Assembly (NCBI RefSeq): GCF_002210295.1
Contig: NZ_MWQH01000008.1
Location: forward strand, 62,001 to 126,000
Length of the DNA stretch: 64,000 bases
Reading direction: 5' to 3'
From: Fibrobacter sp. UWB5
GTDB taxonomy: Bacteria; Fibrobacterota; Fibrobacteria; Fibrobacterales; Fibrobacteraceae
A model generated the notes under the pieces. It worked only from the letters and a program-made list of their open reading frames with translations, had not been told where the DNA came from and ran no database searches. Shown here one piece after another: positions 30,130 to 35,126 of the stretch (position 1 is the first letter of the stretch; the number at the start of each line of letters is the position of its first letter). Position numbers and translations under genes: made by a program.

Positions 30130-31581
30130 ATGATTCGCGCCGCAACATTGGAACGCATTCTCGTTGTCCTTTCGGACTTCGTGGCGTTGTCGATTTGCTT
30201 TGTACTCGCTTTCTGGGTGCAGTTCCACAGTGGTTGGATTGCCGATAAGTTCGATCCGAGCAAGTCGTTTGCCGACTATGCCCATATGGGCCTCGTGCTG
30301 AATATGGGCTGGCTTGTGCTGTTCACTTGCGCCGGGCTTTACCGTTCATGGCTGTTGATGTCGCGTACGCACCAGGTTTTGCGCGTGTTGCGTGCGGTGC
30401 TCATTGGCATCGTGCTTGTAATTGCAGTCCTGTTCGGTGCAGAATTTATCGGTAAGGTCATGGTGAACGAACCGCTCAACCAAGGCTACCTGTACGGTTC
30501 TCGATTCCCCTGGATTTTTATTTATGGCGGCTTTGCGCTGTTCCTGGTGATTCTCTTCAGAATGCTCATTTACCGCTGTCTGCGTAGGCTCTTGAGCCTT
30601 GGCTTTGGTGCGAATAACATTCTGGTGCTGGGTGCAACCGAAGCCGGCAAGAATATTGCCGAAGCGCTTGCGAAGACTCCTGAACGCGGCCAGCGTGTGG
30701 TGGGCTTTGTCGATGAACGTTTCCAGGTGATGGAACATGAGTTTGCGAATGTTCCGGTGCTTGGCAAGTATTCTGATCTTGCGTCTCTTATCAAGAAGTA
30801 CAAGGTAACGGGCATTATTATTGCGCACGAAAGTTCTTCGCCGCAAGAAATCATGCGCGTGCTCGTGTGGGTTTGCGACCAGCCGGTTCACATTTACCTG
30901 GTGCCCGAACTTTATAGCGTGATTAACGGCCAGTTCAAGGCGAATTTGGTTTACGGCTTTGAATTGCAGGAACTGTTTGCGTTTACCATGCCTTTGTGGC
31001 AGGTTCGCGTCAAGCGCATTATCGATATTCTGTTTGGTGCATTCCTCGGCTTGATTTCGTTCCCGGTATGCGTGCTCGCTGCCATTGCAATCAAGCTCGA
31101 AGATCATGGACCGGTGTTCTATTCCCAGGAACGCATTGGCCTGTACGGCAAGCCCTTTACGGTTTACAAGTTCCGCACCATGCGTACCGATGCCGAAAAG
31201 TTTGGCGCCCAGTGGGCCACCAAGGACGACCCCCGCATTACCAAGGTGGGTAAGTTCTTGCGCAAGACCCGTATCGATGAACTTCCGCAGATTTTGTGTG
31301 TGCTTAAAGGCGACATGAGCATGGTGGGCCCGCGCCCGGAACGTGCCGTGTTCATTGCCAAGCTTCGTGAAGAAATACCGTTCTATATTAGCCGCCTGAA
31401 AATGAAGCCGGGTCTGACCGGTTGGGCTCAGGTGTGCCACCATTACGATACTAGCACCGAAGACGTGAAAATCAAGTTGCAGTACGACATGTACTATTTC
31501 GAAAACATGAGCTTGTTGCTTGATTTCCAGATTCTGATGCGTACGGTTTATGTTGTTTTAACTGGTAAGGGAGCGCAGTAA
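30130..31581 (+). CDS. Polyprenyl glycosylphosphotransferase, full WbaP type
   Basis: A 483-residue enzyme of the exopolysaccharide polyprenyl glycosylphosphotransferase family. Four N-terminal membrane helices, a Rossmann-like central domain (NILVLGATEAGKNIAEALAK) and one further helix precede the catalytic domain (about 290-483). That domain has KFRTMRTDAEKFG, LRKTRIDELPQILCVLKGDM, SMVGPRPERA and KPGLTGWAQV. It starts glycan repeat-unit synthesis by moving hexose-1-phosphate to undecaprenyl phosphate. It is the second such enzyme in the window; the other (23951) has a different N-terminal half. Its stop overlaps the nadC start (TAATG), which links an otherwise unrelated pair in one operon. 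Confidence 0.93.
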   Translation: MIRAATLERILVVLSDFVALSICFVLAFWVQFHSGWIADKFDPSKSFADYAHMGLVLNMGWLVLFTCAGLYRSWLLMSRTHQVLRVLRAVLIGIVLVIAVLFGAEFIGKVMVNEPLNQGYLYGSRFPWIFIYGGFALFLVILFRMLIYRCLRRLLSLGFGANNILVLGATEAGKNIAEALAKTPERGQRVVGFVDERFQVMEHEFANVPVLGKYSDLASLIKKYKVTGIIIAHESSSPQEIMRVLVWVCDQPVHIYLVPELYSVINGQFKANLVYGFELQELFAFTMPLWQVRVKRIIDILFGAFLGLISFPVCVLAAIAIKLEDHGPVFYSQERIGLYGKPFTVYKFRTMRTDAEKFGAQWATKDDPRITKVGKFLRKTRIDELPQILCVLKGDMSMVGPRPERAVFIAKLREEIPFYISRLKMKPGLTGWAQVCHHYDTSTEDVKIKLQYDMYYFENMSLLLDFQILMRTVYVVLTGKGAQ

Positions 31582-32444
31582 TGTACGGTGACAATTCGAC
31601 TCCGATTTTTCCGACCGAAGATGCTTTGACCATGATCCGTCTGGCTTTGGCCGAAGATGTTCGCACGGGCGACGTGACGAGCGAATGGACGATTCCTGCC
31701 GACCAGAAGCAACATGCCCGCTTGATTGCCAAGGAAGATGGCGTGCTCGCAGGCCTCCCGGTGATTGAACTTGTGTTCCAGGAACTCAAGGCAAACGTGA
31801 AGGTGACCCTCCACAAGAAAGACGGCGATGTCGTGAAGAAGGGTGACCTGATTGCCGAAATGGACGGCACGACGCACGAACTCTTGACGGGCGAACGCAC
31901 GCTTTTGAATTTTATCCAGCAGCTTTCCGGTGTGGCAACGGTTGCCCATACCTTCCAGGAAGCTTTGAAGGCAGGCAAGACCAAGGTTCTCGATACCCGC
32001 AAGACGGTTCCCGGTTTTCGCACTTTGCAGAAGTACGCCGTTCGCGTGGGTGGCGGTTCCAACCACCGCATGGGTCTCTTTGACATGGTGCTCGTGAAGG
32101 ACAACCACATTGCTGCAGCAGGTGGTGTGCTCCAGGCCCTCGAAGTCGTGAAGAAGAACAACAAGCAGAACTTGATGGTCGAAATGGAAGTCGAAAATTT
32201 CGATCAGCTGCGCGCACTCCTGAACAAGGGTGTGGACGTGATCATGCTTGACAACATGAGCAATGAAATGATGGCCGAAGCTTTGAAGATTATCAAGGAA
32301 AGCGGCGACAAGTGCCTGGTCGAAGGTTCCGGCAACATGACGCTCGAACGCGCCAAGGAAATCGCGACCCTGGGTCTTGACTATATTTCGGTTGGCGCCC
32401 TTACACATAGTGTAAAGGCTCTCGACATCTCTATGAGAATATAA
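31581..32444 (+). CDS. nadC: Nicotinate-nucleotide pyrophosphorylase
   Basis: A 287-residue quinolinate phosphoribosyltransferase, the last step to nicotinate mononucleotide in de novo NAD synthesis. The conserved blocks are LAEDVRTGDVTSEWTIP, ERTLLNFIQQLSGVATVA, DTRKTVPGFRTLQKYAV, GGGSNHRMGLFDMVLVKDNH and VEGSGNMTLE. Its ATG overlaps the preceding stop. The tandem 93-nt repeats start on the base right after its stop codon, so they could be its 3' untranslated region. Confidence 0.97.
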   Translation: MYGDNSTPIFPTEDALTMIRLALAEDVRTGDVTSEWTIPADQKQHARLIAKEDGVLAGLPVIELVFQELKANVKVTLHKKDGDVVKKGDLIAEMDGTTHELLTGERTLLNFIQQLSGVATVAHTFQEALKAGKTKVLDTRKTVPGFRTLQKYAVRVGGGSNHRMGLFDMVLVKDNHIAAAGGVLQALEVVKKNNKQNLMVEMEVENFDQLRALLNKGVDVIMLDNMSNEMMAEALKIIKESGDKCLVEGSGNMTLERAKEIATLGLDYISVGALTHSVKALDISMRI

Positions 32445-32537
32445 GACCGTTCGCGCCCAATCAGATAAGTACGTCCCCAGAGCGCTCACTCTCGCAACCG
32501 CCCCAGCTTAACGCCTGGGGCTTTGTTGCTCACGGAA
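32445..32537. repeat. 93-nt structured repeat, copy 1
   Basis: It starts GACCGTTCGCGCCCAATC directly after the nadC stop. A shared block TACGTCCCCAGAGCGCTCAC then TCTCGCAACC leads into a 7-bp hairpin (GCCCCAG / CTGGGGC), followed by GTTGCTCACGG. GCAAC and GTTGC can pair around the hairpin, and CCGT with ACGG at the ends. Copy 2 has the same frame with a different hairpin sequence. Strand of action unknown. Confidence 0.7.
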
Positions 32538-32629
32538 GACCGTTCGCGCCCAATCTAGTTAAGTACGTCCCCAGAGCGCTCACTCTCGCAACCACGCCTC
32601 GTTAATACGAGGCGCCTGTTGCTCACGAA
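32538..32629. repeat. 93-nt structured repeat, copy 2
   Basis: It begins GACCGTTCGCGCCCAATC again, exactly 93 bases after copy 1. The outer parts are nearly identical to copy 1. The hairpin is replaced by CGCCTCG / CGAGGCG, so pairing is kept while the bases change. The loops of both copies include TTAA. Confidence 0.7.
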
Positions 32630-32804: not shown

Positions 32805-35126
32805 ATGAGCAAGGACTTAAAGGAAAAAGCTCTCGAATATCACGCCATGGGCAAGCCCGGCAAAATCGAAATCGTGCCGACCAAGCCGCATAGCACGCAG
32901 ACCGACTTGGGCCTTGCATACACTCCGGGTGTAGCTGTTCCTTGCTTGGAAATCGAAAAGGACAACAACCTTGCTTATGAATACACCGGTAAGGGAAACC
33001 TCGTTGCTGTGATCAGTAACGGTACGGCAGTGCTTGGCCTCGGAGACATTGGCGCCCTCGCTGGTAAGCCGGTGATGGAAGGTAAGGCTCTCCTCTTCAA
33101 GATTTACGCCGGTATCGATGTGTTCGACATCGAAATCAACGAAAAGGATCCGAAGAAGTTTATCGAAATCGTGAAGGGTATCGCCCCGACGTTCGGCGGT
33201 ATCAACCTCGAAGACATCAAGGCTCCGGAATGCTTCGAAATCGAAGATACCCTGAAGGCTGAACTCGACATCCCCGTGATGCATGATGACCAGCACGGTA
33301 CCGCAATCATTTCTTCTGCAGGCCTCTTGAACGCAATTGAAGTGGCTGGCAAGAGCATTCGCAACGTGAAGATGGTGGTGAACGGTGCGGGTGCAGCCGC
33401 TTGCGCCTGCACGCGACTCTACTTGTCGCTCGGTCTCAAGAAAGAAAACTTGGTGATGTGCGACAGTAAGGGTGTCATTCGCAAGGACCGCAAGGGCCTT
33501 ACCGAAGCGAAGGCTTTCTTTGCGACCGACCGCACCGATATCGAAACGCTTGAAGACGCCATGAAGGGCGCCGATGTGTTCGTCGGCCTCTCCAAGGCTA
33601 ACGTCCTGACTCGCGAAATGGTCCGCAGCATGGCCGACCAGCCGATTGTTTTCGCTCTCGCTAACCCGAACCCCGAAATCAGCTACGAAGAAGCCATGGC
33701 AAGCCGTGGTGATCTGATTTTTGCAACGGGCCGCAGCGACTATCCGAACCAGGTGAACAACGTGATCGGTTTCCCGTACATTTTCCGCGGTGCCCTCGAC
33801 GTTCGCGCTACCTGCATTAACGAACACATGAAGCACGCCGCCGTGCGCGCCATTGCAGCCCTTGCCCACAAGCCGGTTCCGGATGTGGTGAACATTGCTT
33901 ACAACTCCCAGCGCTTTACCTTCGGTAAGGAATACTTGATTCCGAAGCCGCTGGATCCGCGTCTGTTGACCGACGTGTCTATCGCTGTGGCCAAGGCCGC
34001 TATCGAAAGTGGCGTGGCCCGCAAGCCGATTACCGATTGGGACGCCTACTACGACCGTCTGCGCGACATGATGGGTTACGACAACAAGCTTATCCGTCAG
34101 TTCAGCGATACGGCTCGCAGCAACCCGAAGCGCGTGGTGTTTGCCGAAAGCAACCTCAACATGCTCAAGGCTGCGGTGCAGGCCAAGACCGAAGGCGTTG
34201 CACACCCGATTCTGCTCGGCAACCCCGAACGTATTCAGATTATTGCCCAGCGCGAACAGCTCGACCTTACGGGCATCAAGATTGTGAACCCGCGTTCTCC
34301 GGAAGAATTCGAACGCCGTCGCAAGTATGCTGAAATCTACGCCGAAGAAAACGGCCGTAACGGTGTTACGCTCGACGAAGCTCGCGACGACATGTTTGAA
34401 CCGAACCACTTCGGTATGATGATGGTGAAGGTTGGCGATGCTGACGCCCTCATTTCCGGTGGTTACTCCAAGTATTCCGAAACGATTGAACTCGCCAAGG
34501 AAATCATCGGTATCCGCGAAGAATACAAGCATTTCGGTGCTATGCACATTTTGAGCACTCGCAAGGGTACGTTCTTCCTGGCCGATACGCTGGTGAACCG
34601 CGACCCCGATGCAGAAACCCTCGTGGATATCGTCAAGCTCACTCACGACGCCGTGCGCTTCTTTGCTCACGAACCGGTGATGGCCATGCTCAGCTACGCT
34701 AACTTCGGTAGCGACAAGGGAGCTCCACGCGGAACGTCCAACACTGCCCGCGAAGCCGTGCGCATGATTCACGAACAGTATCCGGATTACGTGATCGACG
34801 GCGAAATGCAGGTGAACGTGGCGCTCGACAAGGATCTTCGCGATACCAAGTACCCCTTCAACAAGATCAAGGGCCAGACTGTCAATACGCTCATCTTCCC
34901 GTGCCTCTCTTCTGCAAATACCACTTGCAAGATGCTCCTCGAAATGGGCGTGGGCGAATCTATCGGTCCTGTGCAGATGGGCCTGAACAAGCCGGTGCAC
35001 TTCACCGACTCCGACGCCTCTGTGCATGATATCTTCAACCTGACTGTTGCCGCCGTGATTGACGCCATCGTTCAGGAAAAGAAGGATGAAGAAAAGAACC
35101 GCAAAAAGTTCGACAAGATGTGGTAA
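32805..35126 (+). CDS. maeB: Malic enzyme with phosphotransacetylase-like domain
   Basis: A 773-residue MaeB-type malic enzyme that decarboxylates malate to pyruvate, usually with NADP+. The N-terminal part has [51 protein letters not shown] and the nucleotide loop [12 protein letters not shown]. The C-terminal third (about 430-773) is a PTA/PTB-like domain ([30 protein letters not shown]) that regulates rather than acetylates in known MaeB. Length is normal for the fusion. AAGGAG precedes the ATG. In a succinate-producing fermenter it could run at the C3/C4 node; that is inference. Confidence 0.96.

Follow-up and report, generated by a model that had tools for sequence, protein, structure and literature searches.

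A Fibrobacter-wide dispersed repeat with two sequence-variable hairpins, found as a tandem pair behind nadC

What are two tandem, structured repeats doing directly behind the stop codon of nadC, and do they belong to that gene at all? The window analysed here, a stretch of 64,000 nucleotides from Fibrobacter sp. UWB5, holds this pair between nadC and a malic enzyme gene (Table 1). An initial annotation of the DNA had described direct repeats of 93-nt period beginning right after the nadC stop, each carrying, inside common outer arms, a 7-bp hairpin with TTAA in the loop whose stem differs completely between the two; both descriptions are borne out to the base. Each unit measures 89 nt, the first base of unit 1 is the base directly 3' of the nadC TAA, and the four-base linker gives a period of exactly 93 nt; linkers differ by locus, those of other arrays being GGTAA, AAAA or TATACA. 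Upstream of the hairpin that had been noticed (P2) lies a second and equally important one that the annotation had not described (P1, in GACCG-TTCGCGC...GCGCTCA-CTCTC). A scan of the window against Rfam 15 finds no family above the gathering threshold, and what appears at relaxed scores is at chance level; the annotation had likewise recognised no RNA family. By score the P2 of unit 1 resembles a terminator, with a TTTGTT tail, a result near chance level (one found against 0.6 expected); the P2 of unit 2 has no such score.

Table 1. Features of the tandem pair and its neighbouring genes, in window coordinates.
Feature	Position	Strand	Match or remark
nadC, stop TAA immediately 5' of unit 1	31581..32444	+	TIGR00078, 326 bits against a cut-off of 198
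Unit 1 (89 nt), GACCG-P1-CTCTC-P2-TCAC	32445..32533	+	Covariance-model match G000:C8:94445-94533, 69.3 bits
Unit 1, P1 foot, 5' arm TTCGCGC	32450..32456	+	Pairs with GCGCTCA except at the TC/TC step
Unit 1, P1 foot, 3' arm GCGCTCA	32482..32488	+	
Unit 1, P2 hairpin	32494..32529	+	Outer GCAAC/GTTGC, inner GCCCCAG/CTGGGGC (32500-32521), loop with TTAA
Linker GGAA joining units 1 and 2	32534..32537	+	
Unit 2 (89 nt)	32538..32626	+	Covariance-model match G000:C8:94538-94626, 79.3 bits
Unit 2, P1 foot, 5' arm TTCGCGC	32543..32549	+	
Unit 2, P1 foot, 3' arm GCGCTCA	32576..32582	+	
Unit 2, P2 hairpin	32588..32622	+	Outer GCAAC/GTTGC, inner CGCCTCG/CGAGGCG, loop TTAATA
Malic enzyme gene	32805-35126		178 bases downstream of unit 2

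The two nadC units are one tandem array of a dispersed repeat of about 89-93 bp that is found only in Fibrobacter, a membership that goes beyond the annotation. With the unit as query, a DNA search of the UWB5 genome finds 21 places, the query's own included, and a covariance model built from an alignment of 23 copies finds 36, of which 35 lie at E <= 0.001. Under strict filters the model recovers 2-69 copies per genome in 37 of 37 Fibrobacter genomes (88 in one genome under laxer filters); the further copies that the annotation had suggested looking for are thus present in the genome itself and in every Fibrobacter genome searched. In 24 genomes from the rest of the order, class and phylum the model finds none, an absence that is not absolute, since this model (R1) is biased towards the types of the UWB5 genome and, the P1 arms being read differently between types, under-scores those with other P1 loops. 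No copies were found on phage records, plasmid records or viral contigs, and spread by any of these was rejected; the three viral pattern matches sit in unrelated sequence and lack the second half of the element. An autonomous version behind the enrichment of copies at contig ends was also rejected, since that enrichment is accounted for by rRNA operons and by a repeat resembling an insertion sequence where the contigs break. Two contig ends from different genomes (L041 and L059) share the same break sequence, with the perfect hairpin AACCACCAGCTAGGCTGGTGGTT, which probably represents an insertion-sequence end. A search of the accessible literature found no Fibrobacter repeat of this kind.

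The skeleton of the unit is constant, GACCG, P1, CTCTC, P2 and TCAC following one another, and the stems that it carries take nearly any sequence. The foot of P1 comprises 6-8 pairs (CTCGGC/GCCTCG, TTCGCG/CGCTCA, AATCCG/CGGATT, GACTGG/CCAGTC, GAATGG/CCATTC and CGCGAG/CTCGCG are examples), the outer stem of P2 occurs as GCAAC/GTTGC, GCCAC/GTGGC, GCCTC/GAGGC, GTCGC/GCGAC and others, and the inner stem of P2 has mostly 8-9 pairs closed by a TTAA-type loop. Copies were collected by regular expression (n=208, some false positives such as L216 included) and the main tests were rerun on 176 confident copies, which hold 35 distinct P1 feet and 33 distinct outer P2 stems; these copies are related by descent, and counts among them are not counts of independent events. 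Two-sided changes occur at 17 of the 28 modelled pairs. The covariation score is 0.355 against 0.151 +/- 0.013 in shuffles and exceeds all 500 of them, a significance that shuffle-based controls overstate because the copies are related; it falls to 0.036-0.087 when the partner is slid by 1-3 bases. Pairing is therefore kept where sequence is not, which is what the covariation test proposed in the annotation was to reveal. Between close pairs of copies, 14 stem changes are two-sided and 10 are one-sided, beside 131 changes outside the stems, proportions compatible either with strong selection or with the copying of one arm from the other in a single step; they include a change from C-G to A-T with no intermediate. 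At two unrelated genes of one genome, near-identical copies (L013 and L016) differ by two nucleotides that form one base pair. Short variants also exist (L019 4984-5048, L023 4984-5049 and L053 96-159), in which most of P1 is missing and the GACCG or TACCG, CTCTC-like, P2 and TCAC-like motifs are retained.

The element also has a preferred position relative to genes. Among the 93 arrays with enough upstream sequence to be testable, 53 have their 5' end within a few bases of a same-strand stop codon that closes an open reading frame of 100 codons or more, with a peak of distances from -2 to +3 nt; at the 3' end, 1 of 120 adjoins a stop on the opposite strand. Some elements furnish the last one or two bases of the stop codon itself, as in the citrate synthase gene of G029 (T|GACC), and many of the copies that are not at a stop sit behind T-rich stretches resembling terminator tails (TTTACA|GACC, for example) or behind rRNA terminators. 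Among the host genes are those for fructose-bisphosphate aldolase, citrate synthase, phosphate acetyltransferase, rubrerythrin, NuoN and methylmalonyl-CoA decarboxylase, and a separate terminator-like hairpin, judged by eye, often follows the element. At two contig starts of the UWB5 genome (L053 and L056), elements lie behind the terminator of what appear to be 5S rRNA gene ends, a set that includes a short unit with reduced P1. A gene for a Xer-type recombinase is followed directly by an element or by an array of three units in two genomes (G036:C22:16970-17246 and G019:C3:205694-205780), an adjacency that is probably a coincidence.

Orthologous gene ends were compared across twelve other Fibrobacter genomes, at the level of species, and the element varies freely among them. 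Orthologous sites are empty, occupied by another type or half-swapped at the genes for fructose-bisphosphate aldolase, citrate synthase, phosphate acetyltransferase (pta), rubrerythrin and NuoN and at L057. Behind the aldolase gene, G009 has the same unit as UWB5, G028 combines a different P1 with an almost unchanged P2, G025 has a pair of units of yet another type, and no unit is present in G004, G007 or G024; behind pta, G009 joins a different P1 to an identical P2. At L057 the element stands between ATAA and ATAA in UWB5 and G029, and the site is empty in G004 and G009. A 4-nt direct repeat flanks 8 of the 73 arrays with isolated ends, against 1.8 expected (P=0.0008), and most insertions have none; these repeats peak in the exact register, with 0-3 cases when the 5' register is shifted, a weak signal that hints at insertion accompanied by duplication of a short target. 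The nadC site itself carries a mere 5' scrap in G009 and G029 (GACCGTTCGCGCC and GACCATTCGCGCC) and nothing in G004, and no full element stands there in any of the other species compared. This, together with the presence of the same element at the stops of many unrelated genes, speaks against the proposal that the pair is a tandem regulatory RNA for nadC or maeB; the units look like a new variant of small palindromic mobile repeat, not a private regulator of nadC, which comes near to the annotation's other option of a mobile repeat with a barcode-like stem.

Structure may be kept in RNA or in single-stranded DNA, and the two differ in the mismatches that they tolerate. A stem selected as RNA should show G-U clearly in excess of A-C, and it does not: the P1 core and the outer and inner stems of P2 contain 3183 Watson-Crick cells, 18 G-T and 25 A-C, and the feet and outer stems of the 176 confident copies contain 6 G-U and 12 A-C, which argues against folding at the level of mRNA. 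Steps 2-3 of the P1 foot read TC/TC in 156 of 208 copies and are otherwise mostly Watson-Crick; read on the opposite strand, TC/TC is a tandem G-A. In all 156 of these copies k1 on the top strand is C or T and k4 a purine, which places the bottom-strand step in the context Py-GA-Pu, whereas copies with Watson-Crick steps 2-3 are free of this rule and also allow A or G at k1. The Py-GA-Pu context is associated with stable sheared G-A pairs. The bottom strand also folds better in 134 of the 176 confident copies with RNA parameters and in 142 with DNA parameters. Pointing the other way, 42 of 84 copies of the most frequent P1 type have a G-T pair on the top strand in their apical part, which for that part indicates the mRNA-sense strand. 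Taken together, the lack of a wobble excess, the Py-GA-Pu tandem G-A and the better folding of the bottom strand favour DNA-level over mRNA-level folding, the bottom strand, opposite to the host mRNA, being the probable single-stranded form as judged from sequence. Of the annotation's selected RNA or single-strand DNA structure, the structure is thus upheld, and of its two forms the DNA fits better than the RNA.

The family would accordingly be understood, with about an even chance of being right, as a genus-specific, non-autonomous mobile DNA repeat of REP/MITE-like character; insertion polymorphism, expected of mobile elements, is seen in its presence and absence across species at several genes. 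Recognition of such an element would take place on a folded single strand, most probably the one opposite to the mRNA of the host gene, through its structure together with constant unpaired motifs, a mode of recognition that would let the stems drift while still pairing. It would copy itself into the region of a stop codon or terminator tail, leaving a target duplication of about 4 nt; tandem duplication and deletion would afterwards lengthen and shorten the arrays, and copies could swap their P1 and P2. The enzyme need not be encoded by the element. A bolder version, which we regard as doubtful, has mobile DNA recognised chiefly from the way one of its strands folds (into two hairpins of whatever sequence, in Watson-Crick or tandem sheared G-A pairs), put in one orientation at stops or behind terminators by a host enzyme, with its stems rewritten in single hairpin-copying steps. 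It is unlikely, though still to be taken seriously, that the element is a 3'-UTR RNA of highly expressed genes, whose hairpins block exonucleases, aid termination or bind a protein and whose pairing is kept by selection: the codirectional position downstream of genes of central metabolism, often ahead of a separate terminator-like hairpin, the terminator-like P2 of unit 1, the apical G-T of P1 and the proposal that REPs elsewhere stabilise mRNA (PMC3733652) all agree with it, but the covarying stems have no G-U excess, TC/TC is a destabilising mismatch on the mRNA strand and is kept nevertheless in about three quarters of copies, copy number ranges from 2 to 69 with orthologous genes freely doing without the element, and the terminator count is near chance.

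Nor would transposition be needed if slippage, unequal recombination, gene conversion and template-switching at hairpins had passively distributed and remodelled an old family, an account that is improbable. An arm copied from its partner keeps a stem perfect without selection for function, as the two-sided changes between close copies and the direct C-G to A-T step would have it, and tandem arrays with locus-specific linkers, half-swaps at one locus and microhomology-like deletions (L200) are all of this kind; it leaves unexplained the abutment to stops in a fixed orientation, the conserved unpaired motifs and the 4-nt flanking repeats, and arm copying should turn TC/TC into TC/GA, yet TC/TC persists. 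The annotation's small-RNA array may be entertained too. A small antisense RNA family, transcribed from the bottom strand, folding and acting on the overlapping mRNA end, would suit the better folding of that strand, its tandem G-A and its slight, non-significant lean in wobble pairs (25 against 18). It is very improbable, as wobble pairs stay below 1% and no bottom-strand promoter-like site was found in the window region; usual RNA helices have a far higher wobble frequency.

A mobile repeat calls for a mover, and the usual candidates do not fit. The Y1 transposase (PF01797; IS200/RAYT-type) is absent from the UWB5 genome (G000) and from the copy-rich G025, G032 and G029, and reverse transcriptase is absent from the UWB5 genome and several copy-rich relatives; both were rejected as movers, since they occur in a minority of genomes, UWB5 not among them, and their presence does not follow copy number. 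A copy of the element (L110) lies at one of the eight Y1 or reverse transcriptase loci searched. No integron integrase (TIGR02249) scores over the cut-off in any of 38 genomes of the genus, and matches below it occur also in 14 of 14 controls, as expected of Xer-type recombinases. The mover may be an enzyme of the host or an element since lost; alternatively, the family may have no mover and spread by recombination and hairpin copying.

Known systems offer partial likenesses. The integron attC site follows a gene stop, has stems free in sequence yet paired, and functions as a folded bottom strand. The Fibrobacter element shares the post-stop site, the free but paired stems and, by our reading, probably the folded bottom strand; membership was nevertheless rejected on the integrase and on the RYYYAAC/GTTRRRY core, which it lacks, its P2 outer arms varying freely, and it does not lie in cassette arrays. 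With MITEs it has in common that it is short, non-autonomous and dispersed, with a possible short target duplication, but its GACCG and TCAC ends are not the terminal inverted repeats of the DDE type and no matching transposase was found. GTAG-REPs, recognised by RAYT as folded single-stranded DNA in a strand-specific manner and carrying stem mismatches (PMC8266576), are likewise short, dispersed extragenic palindromes in many copies, often at or overlapping stops; REP ends can even supply a TAG stop codon (PMC3733652). The bottom-strand preference proposed here would parallel that recognition. Membership fails on the tag and the Y1 transposase: the Fibrobacter element has no GTAG at the foot of its stems, its flanks being GACCG, CTCTC, TCAC and their complements, it consists of two unlike hairpins in fixed order with stems fully variable within a genome, it has a possible 4-nt target duplication, and its genome encodes no Y1 enzyme. 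REPINs resemble it in their two-part unit, common compensatory changes, tandem arrays and dispersal through extragenic space, but each consists of a single conserved REP present in two inverted copies (PMC3116915); the Fibrobacter halves are unlike and not inverted, and the variable part is the stems here and the spacer there. CGTC-tagged palindromic repeats (PMC3733652) are also palindromes without a dedicated transposase, and differ in the CGTC at the stem foot, which the larger two-hairpin unit does not have. By behaviour the element is nearest to REPs and REPINs; it is not filed with them because it has no GTAG or CGTC tag, no RAYT and two unlike hairpins.

A genus-wide repeat family, unnamed in the databases and literature searched, is thus present in main fibre-degrading bacteria of the rumen, where it marks gene ends and varies between species. 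Its dozens of independent-looking two-sided stem variants make the choice between RNA and single-stranded DNA directly testable and, if it is mobile, it points to an as yet unknown mobiliser with a preference for stop codons. A second structured repeat family of the form GAGCCGAGTGTCGCG, variable hairpin (often with a CTTGCA loop) and ATGACCGAGGC also adjoins stop codons; a DNA query with one of its copies gave no match in the UWB5 genome. It occurs 3' of rubrerythrin (L131, L129, L137 and L139) and nested within the P2 of the first family, at TTAA|AA or GCAA|AA (L123, L124, L126, L198 and L089).
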